Position numbers and translations under genes: made by a program. Below, piece after piece: positions 3,100 to 30,261 of a stretch of DNA of 36,222 bases. The DNA comes from Methanofastidiosum sp. (GTDB lineage: Archaea; Methanobacteriota_B; Thermococci; Methanofastidiosales; Methanofastidiosaceae): NCBI GenBank assembly GCA_013178285.1, contig JABLXD010000019.1, positions 1-36,222 of the forward strand, written 5' to 3'. Each line of letters starts with the position of its first letter. The stretch's first letter is position 1. Under the pieces are notes generated by a model. It saw only the letters and a program-made list of their open reading frames with translations, was not told the origin of the DNA and ran no database searches.

Positions 3100-3720
3100 T
3101 CAATAGAGAAATAAATATAGGTAATATATTCCAATTAGTATAAGCATTACCCCGCTTATTCTATCTAAAGACTTTGAATACTTCTTAACAAAATCTTCTA
3201 CCTTCTTTAATCCAAAAACTGAAGAAATGACAATAAGTGGAGCGCCGACTAAAAAAGAGTAAATTAAAAGAGAGGCTACAACTATCAATAGGTTTTTCTC
3301 AAGGGATACTATTGAAACTAATGATATCAAAAGAGGTGCGGCCCTTGCTATAGTGATTATTCCATAAGAAATCCCATATGTGTATGGAGTTGAACCGTAA
3401 AAGTTTCTCTCTTTTTTTACCGATAGGATATAACTAATTCTTATTATTCTTAAGAGGATTAATCCTATAATAATAGATATTATCGCCCCTAAAAGAAATC
3501 CTAGTTTGTTGCCTGAATCAAATATCGAGGAAAATCCGAAATTTCCCATGAGCCCAAGAGGTATAAATACAGTTGATACCCCTAACGAAAATAAAATGGC
3601 ATTAAGTGGGGCCCGTTCACCTAAAACTTTTGGGAAAATAGGAATAATAAAAAATAGGTTTAATGGACATAAACCAGCTGTGATACCCAACACGATGGAC
3701 GAAACTAGCGATTCAAACAT
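3100..3720 (-). CDS. CcdA/DsbD-like transmembrane protein with a single cysteine
   Basis: This 206-residue integral membrane protein has about six helices and the two-fold repeat of the CcdA/DsbD transmembrane family. The first repeat opens with GLCPLNLFFIIPIFP, aligned with the family's SPCxLPLLP segment. The second has GISYGIITIARAAPLLIS where the family has a TPCxGP segment. Canonical CcdA moves electrons across the membrane with one cysteine in each repeat. Here only one cysteine (about residue 18) exists in the whole protein and its counterpart position is alanine, so ordinary dithiol transfer is not possible. It may be a different transporter on the same scaffold (the LysE/CcdA-like superfamily). 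It starts three bases after the ppsA stop without its own Shine-Dalgarno motif, so it is probably co-translated with ppsA. Stop is TGA. Confidence 0.65.
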   Translation of the reverse strand: MFESLVSSIVLGITAGLCPLNLFFIIPIFPKVLGERAPLNAILFSLGVSTVFIPLGLMGNFGFSSIFDSGNKLGFLLGAIISIIIGLILLRIIRISYILSVKKERNFYGSTPYTYGISYGIITIARAAPLLISLVSIVSLEKNLLIVVASLLIYSFLVGAPLIVISSVFGLKKVEDFVKKYSKSLDRISGVMLILIGIYYLYLFLY

Positions 3721-3723
3721 TAA

Positions 3724-6165
3724 TTATATGAACCCCATCTCTTTTTCTTTTTCCCACACGTTAAGTCTAGTTTTTATGACCGTGTCAGGGTTTAAACTTA
3801 TAGAATCTATTCCGCTTTCTACTAAGAAGGACGCAAACTCTGGGAAGTCTGATGGGGCCTGACCACATATACCTATCTTCTTGCCCTTTGATTTTACAAC
3901 TTCTATTACCTTCTTAATCAATCTTTTTACAGCGATGTTCCTTTCATCATAGATGCTTGAAACAAGCTCGGAGTCCCTGTCAAGCCCAAGTGTAAGTTGG
4001 GTGAGATCATTTGAACCTATAGAAAATCCATCGAATATTTCACAAAACTCGTCTGCAGCAAGTACGTTTGAAGGTATTTCACACATTACATAGATCTCAA
4101 GCCCATTTTCACGTTGCACTAATCCAAATTCCTTCATAGTATTAACAACTTTTCTGCCTTCAGCAGGTGTTCTGCAAAATGGAACCATTACTTTGATATT
4201 ATTTAATCCAATCTCTTCTCTCGCCTTTTTAATGGCTTTACATTCAAGTGCAAACGCTTGCTTAAAGTTTTCATCGTAGTACCTTGAAGCACCTCTCCAG
4301 CCGATCATTGGATTGCTTTCTTTTGGTTCGTAGAATTTACCACCTATGAGATTTTCATACTCATTGGATTTGAAGTCACTTAGACGAAGAATTACATCCT
4401 TTGGATAAAATGCAGCCCCAATCATTGAGATGCCATATGTAAGCTTATCAATATAGAAATGCGTTTTTTCTTTATATCCCGCTGTTTTATTTTCTATTTC
4501 TTTAACAACTTCTGCAGTTGACATATCATACCTTGATTTTTCGCTTAAATCTTCAAAGTTTACAAGAGCCATTGGATGGATACCTATGTAAGAATTAATA
4601 ATGAACTCTTCTCTTGCTAATCCAACACCATCATTTGGGATTTGTGACTGATAGAATGCTTTTTCTGGTATCCCTACGTTCATCATTATTTTAGTTCTTG
4701 TTTCAGGAAGCTTCTGGATGTCTATTTCTTCTACGTTGTACTTTAGTATACCGTCATAAACTGCCCCAATTTCTCCTTCAGCACAGCTTACTGTAACCTT
4801 CTGGCCATCAGACAAGACTTCAGTTGAGTTATCTGTTCCCACAATACATGGTATCCCAAGTTCCCTTGAAACTATGGCGGCATGGCAAGTTCTTCCTCCC
4901 CTGTTTGTAACAATTGCATTTGCCTTCTTCATAACAGGCTCCCAATCTGGGTCTGTCATCTCAGTTACAAGTATCTCTCCTTCTTTAAAGAGAGAAATCT
5001 CCTTAGGTGTTTTTATAATGTGGGCCATTCCCTGACCAATAAGATCTCCAACAGCTTGGCCAGTTACGAGTTTTTTCCCTTTTTCTTTCAAGATGTATGT
5101 CTTTATGGTGTTAACGTCTCTTAGAGACTGGACAGTTTCAGGTCTTGCCTGTATAATGTAAAGCTCCCCAGTATTACCATCCTTTGCCCATTCAATATCC
5201 ATTGGAGTATATTTTCCTTTTTTATTAGAATAGTGGTCTTCTATTATTACAGCCCACCTTGCAAGCTTTAGGACATCTTCATCAGAAATTGAGAATTTAT
5301 TTCTTTCCTTTTCATCGACCCTAATATTCTTTGTACTTTCATTGGGATCTTCAGAATAAATCATTCTCCTCTGTTTTGCCCCAAGTTTTTTATTTATTAT
5401 AGATTTGTAACCTTTCTTTAGAGTAGGTTTAAAGACATAAAATTCATCTGGATTTACAGTACCCTGAACAATATTTTCGCCAAGTCCAAAAATTGAAGTA
5501 ACTAAAACTACATCCTTGAATCCTGATTCTGTATCGATTGTAAATATGACGCCACTTGATCCGGTGTCACTTCTTGCCATTTTTTGAACGCCTATTGAAA
5601 GCTTAACAGAAAAATGATCAAAGCCTTTATCATGCCTGTATGATATGGCCCTGTTAGTGAAAAGAGATGCAAAACATTTCTTACAAGCCATTATGAGTGC
5701 ATCGGCACCAGTTATATTTAGAAATGTTTCTTGTTGTCCTGCAAATGAAGCATCGGGTAGGTCCTCAGCAGTTGCAGACGATCTAACAGCAACATCCACA
5801 TTTTTTCCATACATTTCTTCTAGCTTCCCATAAGCCTTTATTATTTCTTTTTTTAGTTCATCGGGAAATTCAGCTTCTATTATAGCATGTCTTATCTTTT
5901 CCCCTCTCGTTCCAAGATTCTCATATATATTTGTATCAAGATCTTTTAATATTTCTTTAATCTTTTTTTCTATTCCAGCATTCTTTATAAAATAATCATA
6001 AGCATAAGATGTAATAGCAAATCCTTCGGGAATTTTTATCCCCTTGCTTTTTAAGTTCCTTATCATCTCGCCAAGAGATGCATTTTTACCACCTACAAAA
6101 GGAATATCATCGATATCTATCTCTTCAAAAAGTAGGATTAATTTATTTTCCTTATCTTGGGGCAT
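3724..6165 (-). CDS. ppsA: Phosphoenolpyruvate synthase
   Basis: This 813-residue PEP synthase (pyruvate + ATP + water to PEP + AMP + Pi) is a gluconeogenic entry enzyme. Domains in order are: ATP-grasp-like pyruvate phosphate dikinase N-domain (about 18-345, with FVGGKNASLGEM near the start and VAVRSSATAEDLPDASFAGQ), the phosphohistidine swivel domain with GGRTCHAAIVSRELGIP (catalytic His near 428), and the C-terminal TIM-barrel PEP/pyruvate domain (about 480-805) with SIGSNDLTQLTLGLDRDS and GICGQAPSDFPE. All expected catalytic segments are present and the length is normal. The start is fixed by GGTGTaactATG. A TATA-like TTTTTAAGG lies around 6192-6203. The downstream CcdA-like gene is probably in the same transcript. 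Confidence 0.95.
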   Translation of the reverse strand: MPQDKENKLILLFEEIDIDDIPFVGGKNASLGEMIRNLKSKGIKIPEGFAITSYAYDYFIKNAGIEKKIKEILKDLDTNIYENLGTRGEKIRHAIIEAEFPDELKKEIIKAYGKLEEMYGKNVDVAVRSSATAEDLPDASFAGQQETFLNITGADALIMACKKCFASLFTNRAISYRHDKGFDHFSVKLSIGVQKMARSDTGSSGVIFTIDTESGFKDVVLVTSIFGLGENIVQGTVNPDEFYVFKPTLKKGYKSIINKKLGAKQRRMIYSEDPNESTKNIRVDEKERNKFSISDEDVLKLARWAVIIEDHYSNKKGKYTPMDIEWAKDGNTGELYIIQARPETVQSLRDVNTIKTYILKEKGKKLVTGQAVGDLIGQGMAHIIKTPKEISLFKEGEILVTEMTDPDWEPVMKKANAIVTNRGGRTCHAAIVSRELGIPCIVGTDNSTEVLSDGQKVTVSCAEGEIGAVYDGILKYNVEEIDIQKLPETRTKIMMNVGIPEKAFYQSQIPNDGVGLAREEFIINSYIGIHPMALVNFEDLSEKSRYDMSTAEVVKEIENKTAGYKEKTHFYIDKLTYGISMIGAAFYPKDVILRLSDFKSNEYENLIGGKFYEPKESNPMIGWRGASRYYDENFKQAFALECKAIKKAREEIGLNNIKVMVPFCRTPAEGRKVVNTMKEFGLVQRENGLEIYVMCEIPSNVLAADEFCEIFDGFSIGSNDLTQLTLGLDRDSELVSSIYDERNIAVKRLIKKVIEVVKSKGKKIGICGQAPSDFPEFASFLVESGIDSISLNPDTVIKTRLNVWEKEKEMGFI

Positions 6166-20167: not shown

Positions 20168-22942
20168 ATGAGCTTTGAGCTTTTAGGCGAAGATATTGTC
20201 AGGATTTTAAACGAATTTAATATTACTTCTCCTACTGATATCCAGAAAAGCTCACTTCCAGAGATACTAAATAGAAACAATGTTTTATTGATGGCTCCGA
20301 CAGGTTCTGGAAAAACTGAAGCCGCAATATTTCCTCTCCTAAGGCTAGTGAAGGATAGCAATGCACCGGGTATAAAAATACTTTATATTGCCCCCTTAAG
20401 GGCACTTAATAGGGACCTTCTCCAAAGACTTGAAAAAATGGGGGAAGCTATGGGGATTTCAATTAAAGCAAGACACGGGGACACAGTTCAAAGCGAGAGA
20501 AGAAGACAAAGCTTGAAACCTCCCGATGTTCTGATTACCACACCAGAAACATTACAGGCACTTTATACTGGAAAGAAATTAAGGGAACATCTAAAATCTG
20601 TAATGGCAGTTGTAGTAGATGAAATCCATGAAATAGCTGAGGACAAAAGGGGCATACAGCTAAGTTTAGCTCTTGAAAGGATTGAAAGACTAAAAAATGG
20701 AAGTATACAGAGAATTGGGCTCTCAGCTACAGTTGGATCAAAAGAAGAAGTTGCAAAGTTTTTAGTGGGAGAGGGAAGGGAAGTTAAGATAATCCAGTCT
20801 CAGATAAAAAAAGAGTTCGACATCGAAGTTGAAACTCCAGAAATCTTTGAAGAAGACATCATGACGGCAGAGAATCTGAAAATATCCCCTTATGTAGCAT
20901 CATCAATTAGAAGAATAAAGGAACTGATAGACGCCCATAAAAGCATCCTTCTTTTTGTCAATACCCGTCAAATGGCCGAAACTCTTTCATCAAGATTTAA
21001 TCTTATGGAAATGAATTTTATTGATGTTCACCATTCTTCGCTCTCCAAAGAAACTAGGATTGATGTGGAAACTAGATTCAAGAATGGAGAAATCAAAGGG
21101 ATAGTATGCACATCAAGCATGGAGCTTGGGATAGATGTTGGCGCAGTTGATCTAGTTATCCAGTATGGTAGCCCAAGACAAGTATCAAAGCTTTTGCAGA
21201 GAGTCGGGAGGGCTGGCCACAAAACTTATCTTGTTTCAAAAGGGGTAATTCTCGCAAGTGATGAAGAGATATGTGAGTCTGCTGTAATTGCAAAAAATGC
21301 TCTAAATTATAGAATAGAACGTTCACTTATACCAGAAAAACCTCTTGACGTTTTATCTCATCAGATAATTGGGCTTTCAATGGAAAGCAATGAAGTTTCT
21401 ATTGAAGAGGCTTTCTCCCTTTTTAAAAAATCTTATCCCTATAGAAATATGAGTCTAGAGGAATTTTGGAGGGTACTATACTTTTTAGAAAGTATAAAAC
21501 TAATATGGATTAATAATGGAATAACTTACAAAAGATCTAAACAAGGGATGTTTTATTATTTTGAAAATTTATCAATGATTCCTGACACAAAACAGTACCG
21601 TGTTGTTGAAGTGGGAACAGGTTCATCTTTAGGTGTACTAGATGAGAACTTCATTGTTTCAAACATTGAAGTAGGTGGAAACTTTATAGTTCGTGGGAGA
21701 ACATGGAAGGTATTAAACATTGAAGAAGAAAGAATAGAAGTAACTGAAACTAGGTCTGTAGGTGCAATACCTTCTTGGGAAGGTGAGCTCATCCCTGTTC
21801 CATTGTTTGTTTCTAGGGATGTGCATGAAATTTTCAACGATGGCTCTAAGATAGGAGAATTGCCCTTAACAAAAGATACAAAGCAGATTCTACGTGATTT
21901 GCTTGATGACCAGTCAAAGTATTTTTCTTATTCTAAAGATTCTTTGGTAATTGAAGATATTGGAGAGTTTGTCATTCTCCACATTTTTAATGGGTCTAAG
22001 GCAAATGATACATTGGGCAGGGTAATAACATCCCTACTTGCACAGAGATTTGGAGAGTCAATGGGGATGAGGACAGATCCATACCACATAATGATAAAAT
22101 TTCCTCCTGGAATAAAAGATGGGGGGACGGTAGTAAAAAATACTTTAATTGAGTTAAATGAAGATCATGTAATACCTATACTTGATATTGTTTTGAAGAA
22201 TACGCCGCTATTTGAGTGGAAAATGATACAGATAGCAAAAAGATTTGGAGTTGTAAGGGCAAACTCTGAAAAATATTTGATGAAGAATATTCTAAAATTA
22301 TACAGAAACACGCCGCTTTATGAAGAAACATTAAATGAGTTATACCACGATAAACTTGAAATTGAGCCAGTAAAAGAATTTATCAGAAATATAAAAAATG
22401 GAAAAATTAACATTGTAATAAATAAGAATAATGAACCTTCTACTTTTTCAAAATATCTATTAGAAGGATCCTCATTTGAGCTTCTGTATCCAAAAAGACC
22501 AGATAAGGAAATTATAAAATATCTAAAGAAAAGACTTCTTGAAAAAAGAGTCACTGTAGCATGTCTTCACTGCAGAAACTGGAAAACTACTCTTTCAGTA
22601 AATAACTTTGATGATAACCCGCAATGTCCCCAATGTAGTGCACGATATATTGGAATTTTAAGAAGGCGCGAAGATTTGGAAATAGTTCGCAAAGGCCAAA
22701 AAGGAAAGTTGGACGAAGAAGAAAAAAAGACTTTGAAAGAAATAAAGGACTCTGCAGATTTAATACTGCCTTACGGTAAAAAAGCCATAATTGTTTTAGC
22801 TGGAATTGGAATAGGGCCAAGAACTGCAAAGAGAATACTAGCAAAAGATAGAAAAAATGAAGAAGATCTTTTTAGGGATATCCTTTCTGCAGAAAGGGTA
22901 TATGCTAGAACCAAGATGTTCTGGCAATCAAACAAACAGTAA
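20168..22942 (+). CDS. lhr: Lhr-type superfamily 2 helicase
   Basis: This 924-residue ATP-dependent 3'-5' nucleic-acid helicase has RecA domain 1 with a Q-motif (SPTDIQKSSLP), Walker A APTGSGKTEAA near 44, the DEIHE box and SAT motif. RecA domain 2 has CTSSMELGIDVG and QRVGRAGH. The Lhr winged-helix and Lhr-core region follows, to about 800, and includes the Lhr-type segment SLLAQRFGESMG. A zinc ribbon (CLHC near 799, CPQC near 820) and a final helix-hairpin-helix-like LAGIGIGPRTAKRIL follow. Archaeal Lhr proteins act in DNA repair or translation-linked RNA remodelling. The start is fixed by GGTGCatccATG. It overlaps the convergent S-layer-like gene by 15 bases at the 3' end. No residue loss is seen in the motor. 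Confidence 0.92.
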   Translation: MSFELLGEDIVRILNEFNITSPTDIQKSSLPEILNRNNVLLMAPTGSGKTEAAIFPLLRLVKDSNAPGIKILYIAPLRALNRDLLQRLEKMGEAMGISIKARHGDTVQSERRRQSLKPPDVLITTPETLQALYTGKKLREHLKSVMAVVVDEIHEIAEDKRGIQLSLALERIERLKNGSIQRIGLSATVGSKEEVAKFLVGEGREVKIIQSQIKKEFDIEVETPEIFEEDIMTAENLKISPYVASSIRRIKELIDAHKSILLFVNTRQMAETLSSRFNLMEMNFIDVHHSSLSKETRIDVETRFKNGEIKGIVCTSSMELGIDVGAVDLVIQYGSPRQVSKLLQRVGRAGHKTYLVSKGVILASDEEICESAVIAKNALNYRIERSLIPEKPLDVLSHQIIGLSMESNEVSIEEAFSLFKKSYPYRNMSLEEFWRVLYFLESIKLIWINNGITYKRSKQGMFYYFENLSMIPDTKQYRVVEVGTGSSLGVLDENFIVSNIEVGGNFIVRGRTWKVLNIEEERIEVTETRSVGAIPSWEGELIPVPLFVSRDVHEIFNDGSKIGELPLTKDTKQILRDLLDDQSKYFSYSKDSLVIEDIGEFVILHIFNGSKANDTLGRVITSLLAQRFGESMGMRTDPYHIMIKFPPGIKDGGTVVKNTLIELNEDHVIPILDIVLKNTPLFEWKMIQIAKRFGVVRANSEKYLMKNILKLYRNTPLYEETLNELYHDKLEIEPVKEFIRNIKNGKINIVINKNNEPSTFSKYLLEGSSFELLYPKRPDKEIIKYLKKRLLEKRVTVACLHCRNWKTTLSVNNFDDNPQCPQCSARYIGILRRREDLEIVRKGQKGKLDEEEKKTLKEIKDSADLILPYGKKAIIVLAGIGIGPRTAKRILAKDRKNEEDLFRDILSAERVYARTKMFWQSNKQ

Positions 22943-24868
22943 AGCCATAAGGTCTTCTAGCGCCTTATTTGTCGCCTCGCCGTTTCTTCCGCCAACTATT
23001 AAAACATTGTTCTCGTAGAATACATTTAGTATATATTCCCACTGTCCAAATGATCTTGACCATACTACCTTTGACACGCCTGAATCGTATAGCTCCTTTA
23101 TTATTAGATTACTTTCTTCATTTCCAATTAGGATTAAGTTCTTCTTTGCCTTATCTTCGCCTGTAACATCTATGTCTCTTTTTATGAGTGAGGCGGGCTC
23201 AATCTTAACTGTTGAATCGTAATACAAATACAATTTTGATTTTCTCTGGCTTACTTCAAGCTCGATACCATTGCCATCTTTCTGCTTGTAGTTTGAGTCA
23301 AGTATGTCGATTTTGAAATAGTTCTTTGGCCCATAAACAGTCTGAGGGTCACAGCATGTTAGATCTATTTTATCGCACAATATTACATCGATTGTGTCAT
23401 AGTTGCACTTCTTAAATCTTGGATGCAATGGATTTAAATCAAGAAAATCATCGCATGTCCAATATTTCCCATCTTTTCCAGGATTTACATAGACGGGAGC
23501 GAAAAATGGAATTTTAATTGAAGCATTGCATTCTTCTCCAGGAGTTTCAAATACAGGGATCTGTTGCTCTTCAGGGGATAAATTTCCATCGCCGTTAAGG
23601 TCAACGCCCAACGCAATGATATCCTCCAAAAGATTGGATATGGTAAGATTATAGTCATTGGGATATGTAACAAATGGCATGCAACAAGGTGTTTCTTCAA
23701 TTGCACCATAATCCTTCAGTGAATAAACATCAAACTCTGCAAGTAGGCTATTATCTGCACCCTCAAAGACTTTTATTCCATCAATATAGAAAACTGGCAC
23801 AGTCCAGATAGTTTCCTCAAGACCATCAATAACTCTTGTTCCCCTCTCAAATAAGAAGTATGGGTCGTTCTCATATTGCCTTGTTGGTACAGTTGTAAAT
23901 GAGCCGTACCCTCCTTTAGGGTCGCAAAGCCCCACACAGGTACAGCACCTTGAACTATTAGCGTCCATTACCATAAGAAAGTCATTGCTTTTCCCGGTGA
24001 AATCAGACACTCTGAGGTAAACTTTATACTCTCCTGAAAAGTTTCCGCCACTTTTAACCTTAAACTTGTCATCCTTGGATGTTTCTTCAGTTGTAGGGCT
24101 GTGAATATCTAGAAGAGTTACAGTGTACCATCCGAATACTCTGGTATCTCCTACTTTAAATATAGTTTCAGGAGAATAAATGGGAATTCCATAAATGAAG
24201 TAACTTATATTTTGATCTTCAGAACGGTAAACCCCGTTATTAATAATTGGGTACTCCCTTTCAAATAATCTGATTTTGTAAGAGTTATATGGTATATCAT
24301 AAAGAGGGCCGCCGCATCCAGCAAAAACTTTTCTTTGGAGGGGGGTATGGATATAAGATACTCTATAAATGATGTCGGACATGTTAAAGTCAAGGCAGTA
24401 ATCATCAGGAACGTCAATATCTGATAGCTTTATCATAATCTCTTCGTGCGTTTCGTTATAATCAAATGCCTTGTCGCCATCCCCATAAGGGTACAAAAAT
24501 GATGAGTACTTGTATCCATCATCCCACCAAAGTGATTTTAATCCGTCTGCTACCTTGATTGAATTTACCGAAGCATTAGCAGGGTCTATTCTTATCGTGT
24601 CACTTGCATTTAGATTCTTTAAAGAAACTTTGTATTCTTCATATATTGTATTCTCAATTCTCTCAGTGTGTCTGTTGGCTATAAGAAAAGCAAGTTTGGA
24701 AGCAGATATGATGTCTTTTGAGGTTGCTGTTTCACCAACAACTATCATAGATTTTACTGTATCTCCGTCAAAAAAGAAATCATCTCTCGGTACGGAAGAG
24801 GAGCTAACATTAGAAGGTAAGAATATAGAAATAAAAATAATTGAAAGTAATATTAGGCCCCTTTTCAT
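22928..24868 (-). CDS. S-layer-type surface protein, cysteine-rich
   Basis: The protein has 646 residues. The signal peptide is about 1-23 (KRGLILLSIIFISIFLPS). The first mature domain carries SMIVVGETATSKDIISASKLA (positions about 40-60) and the last 75 residues carry LILIGNEESN and VLIVGGRNGEATNKALEDL. These are the paired N- and C-terminal S-layer domains of methanococcal and thermococcal S-layer proteins. The intervening region contains an EF-hand-like DLNGDGNLSPEE and 14 cysteines, several adjacent (RCCTC, PCCMPF, LTCCDP), which is unusual for an S-layer protein and suggests disulfides or metal sites. There is no C-terminal membrane helix. It is the last gene of the padR-RND operon, starting with GGTGTatacATG 21 bases after the CARDB gene. 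It may be a minor S-layer-domain protein rather than the main lattice protein. Confidence 0.8.
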   Translation of the reverse strand: MKRGLILLSIIFISIFLPSNVSSSSVPRDDFFFDGDTVKSMIVVGETATSKDIISASKLAFLIANRHTERIENTIYEEYKVSLKNLNASDTIRIDPANASVNSIKVADGLKSLWWDDGYKYSSFLYPYGDGDKAFDYNETHEEIMIKLSDIDVPDDYCLDFNMSDIIYRVSYIHTPLQRKVFAGCGGPLYDIPYNSYKIRLFEREYPIINNGVYRSEDQNISYFIYGIPIYSPETIFKVGDTRVFGWYTVTLLDIHSPTTEETSKDDKFKVKSGGNFSGEYKVYLRVSDFTGKSNDFLMVMDANSSRCCTCVGLCDPKGGYGSFTTVPTRQYENDPYFLFERGTRVIDGLEETIWTVPVFYIDGIKVFEGADNSLLAEFDVYSLKDYGAIEETPCCMPFVTYPNDYNLTISNLLEDIIALGVDLNGDGNLSPEEQQIPVFETPGEECNASIKIPFFAPVYVNPGKDGKYWTCDDFLDLNPLHPRFKKCNYDTIDVILCDKIDLTCCDPQTVYGPKNYFKIDILDSNYKQKDGNGIELEVSQRKSKLYLYYDSTVKIEPASLIKRDIDVTGEDKAKKNLILIGNEESNLIIKELYDSGVSKVVWSRSFGQWEYILNVFYENNVLIVGGRNGEATNKALEDLMALLFV

Positions 24869-24889: not shown

Positions 24890-26389
24890 TTATTTTTTCT
24901 TTATATAATTGTTGTATCCGAAGTATCCACCTACTAACAATACAACTATTAGCCCTATAATTACCCCTATTCTTATATTACTTATTGATTTTTCGACAGG
25001 AACATCAATGTTCTTTTGGAACAGATATACATTTAGATCCTGTTTTTCTTTGTCGCCGACTGCCCTAATCCTTAGATTTAGTTGGTATGTCTTTTCTTCT
25101 GCTATTGATTTTATATCGGTGCTTAACACTACTTCTGCCTCTTGTCCTGGTTCTAAGACCCCAATATAATCATTTTTAGATGTGAAGTCAAAAGGCTGCT
25201 CCGACCTTTCAATCGCCTCAACAATTATTGATTCAGCCTTCTCTTCTCCCGTGTTTACTATTGTGAGGTAGATCTTTGCACTTCCTCCTGCTCTTACTGT
25301 TTCTGGAACAAGTCGATATTCGGTGATTTCAAGTTCCGGTTTTCCTTTTACATCCAAGTTCAATTCAAACTCTTCTTTTAGGAGATTATTGGAAGAATCC
25401 CTGTACTCTACAAACATTGGAATCTTGTAAGTCATTTTCTTTGCTTCTTTGTCAACATTTATTAGAAATTCTGCATCCTTTGCCTGCCCACCTGAAAGTG
25501 TTCCTAGATTATATGAGCTTTCATAAGATTTTGATAATGAAAAAGGCTCTTCTAGATCAAGATAAGCTTTAACATATTTTGCACCTTCGGTCCCCTGATT
25601 TGCCAGATTTACTTTTATCTTCACATTTTCATTTCCTGGCCTTATAGTTTCTGGAGCAGAAGAGAAGTTAACTACCATTAATTCTGTTCTTCCACTCACC
25701 CGAAGACCAAACTGGATTGTATACGGTCTTGGATATGGGGTTGTCCCATCATAGAAGTAAAGTACAAGGGTCATGGGATAGTTACCGGCTGTTATTTTTT
25801 CATTTGCCCTGAGCTTGAATGAAAGCAAACTTTCTGTACCCGCATCAAAATCTCCTATATAAATGGAATCAGAAGTATTCTCAGGCATAAAAGGAACTAT
25901 TGTGCCTGCAGGCGGAACAGTCAAACTCGCTTTCACTGTGTATGCTTTCATTGAACCTTCATTAGAAAGCAGGATTTCTAGATCAAAGGCTTCTCCAGGT
26001 TCTACGCTTAAAGGATTTGTTTTTACCTCATTTATAACAAATTCATACTGGCTTCTACCTATCTTATAGCCGACCGGCCCTTTGATTATTACATTGACTC
26101 CAACTTTTGAAACGTCAATTAGATTTATCGTTATATCATTTACTTTAAGGGAGTCCCCTTCTGATATATAGACTCCAAGCGGACCAATAGGTGCACTCCC
26201 CTCTAGCACCATAAACGATGCTATAGTGTCTTTGTAATCTGTAAGTGCTAAAGCATAAGGCCCGACAAAGATAAATTCGTTATCATAAAGGTATCCTGAA
26301 TAAATCACTGAATCTGTACTTGCATTAGCGCTTGGCGCTAAAACACTCATTAAAAAAACTCCAATTAAAAAAATATTAATCTTTTTCAT
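24890..26389 (-). CDS. COG1361-type CARDB-repeat surface protein with membrane anchor
   Basis: The protein has 499 residues. The signal peptide is about 1-24 (ending PSANAS). A roughly 100-residue N-terminal domain is followed by three successive CARDB/NEW3-like beta-sandwich domains near 120-230, 235-345 and 352-455. Each domain starts with an (S/P)AE(T/P)-like lead such as SAPETIRPGNENVKI or LVPETVRAGGSAKI and has the LxNxG turn (LSNEGSMKA, LANQGTEGA, IVNTGEEKA). One C-terminal transmembrane helix (about 474-492) ends NNYIKKK. COG1361 proteins are often encoded with RND-type exporters in archaea; this one probably works outside the membrane with the permease encoded just upstream. The strongest ribosome-binding site of the operon (GGAGGTATattATG) precedes it, and its start overlaps the permease stop by 14 bases. 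Confidence 0.8.
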   Translation of the reverse strand: MKKINIFLIGVFLMSVLAPSANASTDSVIYSGYLYDNEFIFVGPYALALTDYKDTIASFMVLEGSAPIGPLGVYISEGDSLKVNDITINLIDVSKVGVNVIIKGPVGYKIGRSQYEFVINEVKTNPLSVEPGEAFDLEILLSNEGSMKAYTVKASLTVPPAGTIVPFMPENTSDSIYIGDFDAGTESLLSFKLRANEKITAGNYPMTLVLYFYDGTTPYPRPYTIQFGLRVSGRTELMVVNFSSAPETIRPGNENVKIKVNLANQGTEGAKYVKAYLDLEEPFSLSKSYESSYNLGTLSGGQAKDAEFLINVDKEAKKMTYKIPMFVEYRDSSNNLLKEEFELNLDVKGKPELEITEYRLVPETVRAGGSAKIYLTIVNTGEEKAESIIVEAIERSEQPFDFTSKNDYIGVLEPGQEAEVVLSTDIKSIAEEKTYQLNLRIRAVGDKEKQDLNVYLFQKNIDVPVEKSISNIRIGVIIGLIVVLLVGGYFGYNNYIKKK

Positions 26390-27455
26390 AATATACCTCC
26401 ATCTTTCTCTTAATTAAATTTTTCGTATCTTGAAATACTTTTTCTTGAATTACCAAAAAGGAGGGCAAGAATATAAGCGTTACCCCCATGCAACTGAAAA
26501 CTCCAATGAATAACATCTTTCCCATTGTATCCAGTATGGATAAAGATCCAGCTAACATTGCAATAAATCCAAATCCCGCAACAATAGATGATACAACAAT
26601 CGGTTCAACGACTCCTTCAAGAGTCCTAATTATCTTTTCAACAATTATTGGCGTTCTTTCAAGGTTATATCTGTTTATAGTCTGTATCGCAAAGTCTATC
26701 CCGATACCTGCCATCATTGAAATAACGCCGACAAGTTCAGAACTTAATGATATCCCTGCAAATCCGGATATTCCCATCATCCATACTATACCAACTCCTA
26801 CACATATTAAAGGCATTATACCATACCTTATTGATCTGAATGTTAGAATAACGCACAATAAGACTCCTATCATACCAAATGTTGATATCTTTGACATCTC
26901 AGGCAGAATTATATTCGTGAGTTCCCTATTCATTGCTATATCTCCGCCTGCTTGAACGTTCAATGTAGTTTTTGATATAATAGATTTTACATCATCATAC
27001 ACCACGATATCATCTACACCTTTCAAAACGCTAAGTCTTATCACCATATACCCAAGGCTATCTGAAACTTCAATTCTGTTTTTTAATTCTTCTTTTGGCA
27101 AATAGATATCTTCAAGTCCAATGTCAAAGGAAGAATCTTCAATTCCATAGACATTTATTAACTCTTGATTCAAAAGATATGCTTCTCTCAATACGTCCGG
27201 AGAGAATACGTTTTCCGAGTTGATTACAACTATAATTGAATTATATCTTTCAAACTTATCTTCCATTTTCATGAATACTTGTATCTCTTCAATGTCATTA
27301 GGTAGCTGTGACATATCGTCTCCTTGCTCTATTTTGATGAGAGAGATACCCGCACCTAAAATTATAGTTATTATAAATGATAATATTAGGAATCTCTTGG
27401 GATATTTCCCATGCAGTTCTGAAAAATCTTTTATCAATTTATCGTAATTTGGCAT
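26376..27455 (-). CDS. RND superfamily permease, C-terminal half (HAE3/MMPL type)
   Basis: The protein has 359 residues with one half of the RND/HAE3 fold: TM1 near 22-40 (FLILSFIITIILGAGISLI), an extracytoplasmic loop domain (about 42-185), then five helices near 190-340. The transport-relevant aspartate is in MAGIGIDFAIQTINRYNLE (TM4-equivalent). A standard HAE3 exporter is one protein with both halves and about 12 helices. This half starts only one codon after the stop of the other half and is in the same reading frame. The ATG at 27455 has a poor ribosome-binding site (GGTAG, three bases away) compared with its neighbours, so it depends on reinitiation or readthrough. Substrate is unknown; family members export lipids, hopanoids or hydrophobic compounds. 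Confidence 0.8.
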   Translation of the reverse strand: MPNYDKLIKDFSELHGKYPKRFLILSFIITIILGAGISLIKIEQGDDMSQLPNDIEEIQVFMKMEDKFERYNSIIVVINSENVFSPDVLREAYLLNQELINVYGIEDSSFDIGLEDIYLPKEELKNRIEVSDSLGYMVIRLSVLKGVDDIVVYDDVKSIISKTTLNVQAGGDIAMNRELTNIILPEMSKISTFGMIGVLLCVILTFRSIRYGIMPLICVGVGIVWMMGISGFAGISLSSELVGVISMMAGIGIDFAIQTINRYNLERTPIIVEKIIRTLEGVVEPIVVSSIVAGFGFIAMLAGSLSILDTMGKMLFIGVFSCMGVTLIFLPSFLVIQEKVFQDTKNLIKRKMEVYYEKD

Positions 27456-27458
27456 ATG

Positions 27459-27461
27459 CTA
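27459..27461 (-). other. In-frame TAG separating two RND halves
   Basis: The gene read from 28541 meets TAG here, then one CAT codon, then ATG 27455, all in one frame. If the TAG were read through, a single 721-residue protein of normal HAE3 length would result. TAG is used as an ordinary terminator elsewhere in this window (padR, the prenyl synthase, FAH, AAA ATPase and Tes-type genes), so special decoding cannot be assumed. Confidence 0.7.
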
Positions 27462-28541
27462 CCACTCCCTCAAAGCCATAATTGAAGGCAAGAATACCAA
27501 TGCCCCAACAAGGCAGCTTATAATCCCTAATGATAAGGCAGTTCCTAGATGGACCATCATTGGCATGGAGGAAAGGGCCAGTGCCATAAATCCAGCAACG
27601 GTTGTTGAACTAGAGCCTATAGTTCCTCTACCAACCCCTGCAACCATGGCAACTATTCTTTCTTGATTGGGTTTACCTTTCTTAGATTCCTCGTTGTAAC
27701 GCAATACCATGAATATCCCGTATTCTGCGCCCAAACCAATAACAATAGCTCCAACACTTGCTGTAACTAGGCTTATTGGTATCCCAATATAGGATAAAAT
27801 ACCTGCGGTCCATAAAATTCCACAAATGAGGGGGATTATAACAAAGAATGATTTGAATCTCAATATCAAAGTCAGTAAAATAAATACTATAATTGCAGAT
27901 ATTGCCATAGTTTTTAATGAGTCTTCTCTCAAAATTCTGAGGATAGTTTTATTCAGTACAGGGGAACCTGTTATAGTATAATTAAGTCCATACAACTCGA
28001 CTTTTTCAGTTTCTTCATTTACTATGTCAATAGCAGTTTGAATCTCTTCTTCCCCTCTTACTCCTCCCATTTTTACCATTACAATTGCTGAAGTATAATC
28101 TTTAGATATCAATCCTGGCATAGTTTTTGCAACCTCTCTTAAAGTTGCATCGTCTGAAGGTATGCCTCTAAAGATAGAATAATAGACTGTTCCGGGGCCT
28201 ATCACATCAATTATTTCAGGCCTAGATTTTAATCTGTTTTCTAACTCATATATGCTCTCAAGGCTTTCTTTATTCCTTATGTCATTTACAACATCAAAAT
28301 TAGTTTCCAAGAGTATTATTATTCCTTCCTCTTCACCAAATTCACTGTTAATTATATTTTGAGTTCTTATAACATCAAAGTTTTGAGGTAATTCTTTCAT
28401 AAAGTCAGATTCAAAACGTAAATTTAAGGCGCCAAATGATAGGAAAACAGTGATTAGTACCATTGAAATAACGATGATTTTACTGTATTTGTATTCAATT
28501 AGTGCAAGTTTGCCAAAAAGAGTATCTTTAAGTTCTCTCAT
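27459..28541 (-). CDS. RND superfamily permease, N-terminal half (HAE3/MMPL type)
   Basis: The protein has 360 residues. TM1 is near 20-38 (IIVISMVLITVFLSFGAL), followed by a periplasm-equivalent domain (about 40-210), then five helices from 215 to the end. In the TM4-equivalent, GLGAEYGIFMVLRYNEE has Glu where HAE3 proteins usually have Asp; the acidic proton-relay position is kept as the longer side chain. Together with the next gene it makes a complete 12-helix exporter. The start is set by GGTGTaggaATG, which overlaps the padR stop, so padR and the permease are translationally coupled and probably co-regulated by PadR. The termination codon is TAG, discussed separately. Confidence 0.82.
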   Translation of the reverse strand: MRELKDTLFGKLALIEYKYSKIIVISMVLITVFLSFGALNLRFESDFMKELPQNFDVIRTQNIINSEFGEEEGIIILLETNFDVVNDIRNKESLESIYELENRLKSRPEIIDVIGPGTVYYSIFRGIPSDDATLREVAKTMPGLISKDYTSAIVMVKMGGVRGEEEIQTAIDIVNEETEKVELYGLNYTITGSPVLNKTILRILREDSLKTMAISAIIVFILLTLILRFKSFFVIIPLICGILWTAGILSYIGIPISLVTASVGAIVIGLGAEYGIFMVLRYNEESKKGKPNQERIVAMVAGVGRGTIGSSSTTVAGFMALALSSMPMMVHLGTALSLGIISCLVGALVFLPSIMALREW

Positions 28542-28543
28542 TC

Positions 28544-28888
28544 CTACACCTCAAAAACTTCCTTTAAAAAATCTTCATAATAAAGGAGGTCTTCTTTTAA
28601 GCTACCCATTTTCTCATTTAGCTTTATATCTCCTTTCGGAGTAATTTTATAAAATTTTTTACCTCTTGAACCTTTATTTGTTTCTTTAATTAACCCTTCA
28701 GATGCCATCAACATTATTTTAGGATAAATTAATGCCGGAGAAGGTTTCCAGGCTTCTTTTGATCTACTTTCAAACTCTTTTATGATATCGTAACCACATA
28801 GTTCCTTCTTACTAAACAACCAAAGGATAAATGTATCAATTTGAATTTGAAAATAATGAAAACTTTTATGAAATCGTACAAATGTCAT
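28544..28888 (-). CDS. PadR family transcriptional regulator
   Basis: This 114-residue winged-helix repressor of the PadR type has an N-terminal helix leading into FILWLFSKKELCGYDIIKEFE, the recognition region PSPALIYPKIMLMASEGLI and the wing GKKFYKITPKG, followed by a short C-terminal dimerisation helix. PadR proteins typically repress their own operon and an adjacent efflux pump and release on ligand binding. Here it is the first gene of a padR-RND-RND-CARDB-S-layer unit. The start follows GGTGCgaatATG, and a 23-base palindrome overlies the predicted transcription start, fitting autorepression. The inducing ligand is unknown. Stop is TAG. Confidence 0.85.
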   Translation of the reverse strand: MTFVRFHKSFHYFQIQIDTFILWLFSKKELCGYDIIKEFESRSKEAWKPSPALIYPKIMLMASEGLIKETNKGSRGKKFYKITPKGDIKLNEKMGSLKEDLLYYEDFLKEVFEV

Positions 28889-28965: not shown

Positions 28966-30261
28966 TTAGCCAACAATCTTTTCCCATTTTTTAAGTTTTA
29001 GTACTTTTGAAAGTGTTGAGCCTCTCTTTATCTCTTCTCTGATTCTATTCTCCTTTTCCTTTACGTCAAGACTTCTATTTATTATTTCTTGTGCCTCTTC
29101 TTGAGGTATCACTACGACGCCACTGTCATCTCCAATTATATAGTCTCCTTTGTTTACTTTAAGTCCACCACATACAACTTCGCAACCTATTTCTCCAAAA
29201 CCTTTAGGATCTCCTGCATCTGGAACCTCATATCTTGCGAATACGGGAAAACGTATTTCTTTGAGGTCATCTACATCCCTTACAGCGCCATCTATTACAA
29301 CGCCACCAAGTTTTCTCATGAATGCACTCCAAGTTGCAAGCTCTCCCCAGATAGCAATATTGCCAGAATTGGCGTCTATCACAAGAATATCTCCTTCTTC
29401 TGCTAGATCAATTGCTTCAACAGCTTTTGCCCAGTCTCCATTCATAGTCTTAACTGTCAAGGCTTTTCCTGCCATTCTGATTCCGGGAATGACTGTATGT
29501 ATGCCCTTCATTGCGCCTCCTCTGTGCATGGCATCCGATACATTTGAAGAAGAAACTTTTTTTAGAGCTTCAATAAGTTCTTCTTTTTTATATTTTCTAA
29601 ACTCTAAACTTTCAATCGGTTTTCTGAGATCAACGCTCTTTCTTACTATTTTTGTAGCCTCTAATAGATTAGAAGCTTTGGTAATTGCACCGCCTACTAT
29701 GACTATATCAGCGCCAGCGGAAACTACGTCCGGTATATTTTCAGAGTTTAATCCTCCTGCAGTTGCAATAGTAATGTTCACAGCTTCCTTAACGTCTTTT
29801 ATATCCTGTAACGGATTTTCACCCTTCATCTGTTGATCAATACCCACATGAATACAGACATATTTTGCACCCATTTTCTGCACTTCAGCAGCTCTGTCCA
29901 CTTTGTTTTTGACATTGATTAAATCAATCATTATTTCTGAATTATACTTTTTTGCAGCCTTGATTGCTTCTTTAATTGTGCTGTCATCAGAAGCACCTAA
30001 AATTGAGACTATGTCAGCACCAGCTTTTGATGCCATCTCAGTTTCAAAATCTCCCGTATCCATGGTCTTCATATCTGCTATAATTTTTTTATCAGGAAAA
30101 ATGTGCTTTAGTTCTCTTATTGCTTCCATACCCTCACTTTTTATAAGGGGGGTTCCAGCTTCAATCCAGTCTATACCTCCTGGAACAGCTTCTTTTGCCA
30201 TAGAAATAGCTCTGTCAAGATTTAATATATCCAATGCAAGTTGAAGTATTATTTTACTAAT
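28966..30261 (-). CDS. Bifunctional hexulose-6-phosphate synthase / RraA-like fusion, apparent ATT start
   Basis: The protein has about 431 residues from an ATT codon at 30261 (422 if the in-frame TTG at 30234 is used). Domain 1 (about 1-215) is hexulose-6-phosphate synthase of the OMP-decarboxylase family: DWIEAGTPLI, DMKTMDTGDFE with the catalytic Asp-x-Lys-x-x-Asp, HVGIDQQ, and the phosphate loops ATAGGL and IVGGAI. Domain 2 (about 225-420) is RraA/4-hydroxy-4-methyl-2-oxoglutarate-aldolase-like, with SDAMHRGGAM, WGELATWSA and GGVVIDGAVRD. This fusion is known in methanogens, where HPS supplies ribulose 5-phosphate or handles formaldehyde; the role of the RraA part is unsettled. Without the nine codons before TTG the first beta strand (KIILQLALDIL) would be cut, so the upstream start is favoured. 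Confidence 0.9.
   Translation of the reverse strand: MSKIILQLALDILNLDRAISMAKEAVPGGIDWIEAGTPLIKSEGMEAIRELKHIFPDKKIIADMKTMDTGDFETEMASKAGADIVSILGASDDSTIKEAIKAAKKYNSEIMIDLINVKNKVDRAAEVQKMGAKYVCIHVGIDQQMKGENPLQDIKDVKEAVNITIATAGGLNSENIPDVVSAGADIVIVGGAITKASNLLEATKIVRKSVDLRKPIESLEFRKYKKEELIEALKKVSSSNVSDAMHRGGAMKGIHTVIPGIRMAGKALTVKTMNGDWAKAVEAIDLAEEGDILVIDANSGNIAIWGELATWSAFMRKLGGVVIDGAVRDVDDLKEIRFPVFARYEVPDAGDPKGFGEIGCEVVCGGLKVNKGDYIIGDDSGVVVIPQEEAQEIINRSLDVKEKENRIREEIKRGSTLSKVLKLKKWEKIVG

Follow-up and report, generated by a model that had tools for sequence, protein, structure and literature searches.

A gene pair conserved in Methanofastidiosum probably encodes a split HAE3-type RND exporter

The 36,222-nt stretch of Methanofastidiosum sp. 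DNA analysed here (hereafter the window) carries, on its minus strand, two adjoining genes whose products correspond to the N- and C-terminal halves of one RND-superfamily transporter. We propose, with a probability of about 0.93, that they encode an HAE3-type RND exporter stably split into two genes in this genus. The two genes lie within a block of five, whose features are as follows:

28544–28888, minus strand: PadR-family regulator (PF03551), first gene of the block, separated from the N-half gene by 2 nt
27459–28541, minus strand: gene for the N-terminal half of an RND (HAE3/MMPL) protein, 360 aa, with TM1–6 and the first porter loop
27462–27471, minus strand: predicted ribosome-binding site GAGGGAGTGG of the C-half gene, lying within the last codons of the N-half gene (..R-E-W) and assigned from its anti-SD duplex and GAG conservation
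27456–27461, minus strand: TAG-CAT junction, read from the relatives' junctions as the ordinary stop of the N-half gene and a 3-nt spacer
26376–27455, minus strand: gene for the C-terminal half of an RND (HAE3/MMPL) protein, 359 aa, with TM7–12 and the second porter loop
24890–26389, minus strand: CARDB/NEW3-domain protein (PF07705, PF10633), sharing its first 14 nt with the end of the C-half gene
22928–24868, minus strand: S-layer-like protein (PF05124), end of the block

The first open reading frame runs from an ATG at 28541 to a TAG at 27459–27461 and the second from an ATG at 27455 to a TAA ending at 26376. As the initial annotation had noticed, both lie in one common frame on the minus strand, with only TAG and CAT between them. 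Each half exceeds the cut-off of the MMPL family PF03176 (110 bits for the N half, 63 bits for the C half). Against the HAE3 model TIGR00921, the best stretches cover model positions 3–348 and 548–733, and the halves taken singly score 226 and 116 bits, each spanning half of the model, the curated cut-off of 351.9 bits being set for the whole chain and not for single halves. The acidic proton-relay residues expected in TM4 and TM10 of HAE3 exporters are both present, Glu273 in the TM4 motif GLGAEYGIF of the N half and Asp254 in the TM10 motif GIGIDFAIQ of the C half, and both residues are invariant in the nine pairs described below. The pair thus resembles HAE3 exporters in having two MMPL halves, the two acidic motifs and a collinear full length, and we file it as HAE3-type by homology only. 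It departs from its one-chain HAE3 homologs in having two genes, two chains and a shortened, interrupted TM6–TM7 linker: a single polypeptide is a criterion of the HAE3 class, and two genes were found in 9/9 orthologs. The one-chain HAE3 proteins of Thermococcales share about 26–36% identity with each half and differ in their TM4 motif (GMGIDYG versus GLGAEYG in the pair), residue 273 being Asp in Thermococcales and Glu throughout the Methanofastidiosum pairs and paralogs. Among solved structures, the best sequence matches are MmpL4/MmpL5 and HpnN (N half, E-values of 1e-14 to 1e-9; C half, 0.0014 with HpnN), which unlike the pair are single chains, exporting siderophores or hopanoids in bacteria.

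The nature of the junction was decided by comparison across 10 Candidatus Methanofastidiosum genomes, window genome included, the genus being represented solely by fragmented, metagenome-type assemblies. Both halves are present and adjoining in nine of the ten. The remaining genome, G003, which is listed as 99% complete, has neither the split pair nor a one-chain paralog. The N-half orthologs are exactly 360 aa long in 9/9 genomes and all end in ...MALREW, while the C-half orthologs have 359 aa (358 in one genome) and start with ATG, or TTG in two genomes. The split point is therefore constant, and the stop codon that marks it varies: three genomes use TAG, four TAA and one TGA, and the remaining one reads TAN, with its third base unread. 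In 8/8 relatives exactly 1 nt separates this stop from the second start, so that the halves lie in different frames (+1). The window genome is the sole one with a 3-nt spacer (CAT), 2 nt longer than in the relatives, which is why its two halves share a frame. The in-frame TAG is thus a coincidence of this longer spacer. An in-frame arrangement alone is also weak evidence and unremarkable in the window, where 5 of 17 same-strand neighbour pairs are in frame and a second 3-nt in-frame gap separates the genes at 3100–3720 and 3724–6165.

These observations bear directly on the claim of the initial annotation that a full-length exporter had been cut by an amber codon, a claim for which it had named a different spacing or frame in close relatives as refuting; both proved to be different there. 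It had offered read-through of the TAG, possibly as pyrrolysine, which would give one chain of 721 residues. The frame does continue past the TAG, in the window genome only; at this site, relatives carry not only TAG but also TAA and TGA, and in 8/8 cases they have the second half in another frame. TAG is moreover an ordinary stop here, as had been pointed out: it ends 7 of the 27 genes of the window, and it ends the C-half gene in 8/8 relatives (TAA in the window). The suggested search for pylS yielded no match near the cut-off: in the window genome and six other genomes of the genus, the best scores were 21–35 bits against a cut-off of 178, in a search whose control brought just one control genome over that cut-off, and the weak matches were mostly long frames sized like other aminoacyl-tRNA synthetases. 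We regard the probability of read-through as negligible.

The same comparison disposes of a recent nonsense mutation, a pseudogene or a sequencing or assembly error in a one-chain gene. Such an accident would account for the in-frame arrangement and nothing further, and is contradicted by an identical break in nine genomes whose proteins share 77–89% (N half) and 74–89% (C half) identity, and by the different stops and frame of the relatives. Pairwise dN/dS against the window is 0.04–0.09 for the N half and 0.05–0.10 for the C half, where one comparison is saturated, and synonymous sites are near saturation in the comparisons of both halves with relatives. Both halves are under strong purifying selection, and neither can be a remnant. 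With the start and the SD site of the second gene also kept, we give an accidental break hardly any credence. Pyrrolysine, nonsense mutation and sequencing error are thus ruled out by the relatives' split point, stops and frames and by the lack of PylS. The break being old and genus-wide, the description 'cut in two by an in-frame TAG' is misleading, and a possible case of recoding is removed. More generally, close relatives decide such cases, since stop identity and frame vary among them and the split point stays constant.

The second gene appears to have its own translation signal. The statement that it lacks the GGTG-N4-ATG start signal is literally true, though GAGGGAGTGG, which holds a GAGGGAG site, ends 6 nt before its ATG. 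Its predicted duplex with the anti-SD, taken from general knowledge as the usual archaeal one (the 16S rRNA was not found in this assembly), amounts to -9.2 kcal/mol, the third strongest among 28 starts of the window, and the corresponding values in relatives are -8.3 to -10.3 kcal/mol; for internal ATGs of the pair genes the median is -2.9 and the 5% value -7.5. Codon usage points the same way. The codon of Glu-359 of the N half, located at the SD site, is GAG in 9/9 genomes, whereas GAA is preferred in the other 31 Glu columns that are invariant in the pair (GAG:GAA = 62:204). The sole all-GAG column among these 31 is Glu-353 of the C half, whose codon lies within the downstream gene's GGAGG site. 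Both all-GAG columns thus coincide with ribosome-binding sites, good evidence that the site of the second gene is functional. The distance from GGAG to the start is 7 nt in relatives and 9 nt in the window, where the downstream gene has the 7-nt distance, and the start and SD of the C-half gene are retained across the nine genomes. The pair is a clear example of conservation of a ribosome-binding site within the coding 3' end of the gene before it. Of the earlier proposal of a split exporter with coupled reinitiation, the split is established by the nine genomes. Translation of the second gene would start from a Shine-Dalgarno site of its own, located within the 3' end of the first gene. It would probably be coupled to termination of the first, since stop and start are only 1–3 nt apart.

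As to the origin of the pair, a one-chain paralog of 702–736 aa occurs in three genomes of the genus, the window genome G000 (contig C45), G002 and G009, and aligns end to end with the pair at 60–61% (N) and 53–61% (C) identity. In G001 the paralog is interrupted by stops. The copy in G000 (L072, C45 7253–9361) shows a frame change near its C-terminus, close to the contig end, and that in G001 (L075, C19 5494–7669) a frame change and an in-frame stop in its N half; both may be decaying or misassembled. The split point corresponds to the TM6–TM7 linker, in which the paralog has about 8–9 extra residues and the one-chain Thermococcales homologs a linker longer still. Outside the genus, the homologs found are one-chain proteins, and in a search of the phylum (115 genomes) strong MMPL matches in frames of about 360 aa occurred solely in this genus among the matches listed. 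Together with the one-chain paralog, these findings are most simply accounted for by fission in the lineage of the pair: an ancestral one-chain gene would have been broken in a short TM6–TM7 linker by a stop and an immediate new start. Fission followed by re-fusion in the paralog is a possible alternative with which the trees are compatible. They group the pair and the one-chain paralogs apart from all others (99–100% bootstrap) and leave the nesting of one relative to the other ambiguous, monophyly of the pair against the paralogs receiving 71/80 in the N tree and 27/73 in the joined tree and not being recovered in the C tree. Returning to fission, we somewhat favour the fuller scenario in which fission of an HAE3 exporter, shared across the genus, gave an obligate two-chain transporter, made by termination-reinitiation and coexisting with an unsplit paralog. 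If this is true, the cost or benefit of splitting between TM6 and TM7 becomes directly testable, the split and unsplit paralogous exporters of one genus forming a natural pair for comparison. The split pair can also serve as a genomic marker for Methanofastidiosum.

In RND proteins the TM4 and TM10 helices adjoin and carry protons. With one of these helices in each chain, the two chains most likely must assemble. We therefore envisage that the half-proteins come together in the membrane as the usual pseudo-symmetric 12-TM unit and that this unit would use the proton gradient through Glu273 in TM4 of the first chain and Asp254 in TM10 of the second. Such a heteromeric exporter is probable, as in SecD and SecF, the known precedent for a two-chain RND protein. 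These two members of the superfamily are described as a heterodimer of two 6-TM chains and also in fused, single-chain form (Chem Rev review, PMC8277102); they differ from the pair in family and function (Sec translocation), and sequence similarity is marginal. Our search for half-size or split HAE3 exporters found nothing in the literature available to us, and the main text of a survey on fusions and fissions in archaea mentions neither RND nor MMPL.

Alternatively, each half could be a separate half-size transporter, forming two homo-oligomers rather than one heteromer. Methanocaldococcus jannaschii, for example, has a stand-alone half-size RND gene. We consider this improbable here, as the two genes always adjoin in a constant order, each product aligns with the corresponding half of the one-chain homologs and bears one acidic TM4 or TM10 motif, and the pair is retained in nine genomes and jointly missing in G003.

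The heteromeric exporter would act in a conserved genomic setting. The PadR gene occupies the same place in the orthologous loci examined, the CARDB/NEW3 gene is conserved directly downstream of the C-half gene, and the order PadR – N half – C half – CARDB/NEW3 – S-layer-like is kept in the genus. This conservation suggests that the PadR protein may regulate the exporter and that the two S-layer-like proteins may cooperate with it, and from these neighbours we would guess at an envelope-related compound as substrate.

A separate observation concerns a gene (28966–30261, minus strand) encoding an HxlA-RraA fusion (hexulose-phosphate synthase/RraA-like), which seemingly starts with ATT (30259–30261). 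In 7/7 Methanofastidiosum loci the listed TTG is preceded, 27 nt upstream, by an ATT codon behind a GGTG site, and the loci have no common in-frame ATG, GTG or TTG. In the relative's locus L081 a stop immediately precedes the ATT codon, and the NCBIfam model for this gene starts exactly at it. Such a conserved AUU start would, if true, be unusual for an archaeon.
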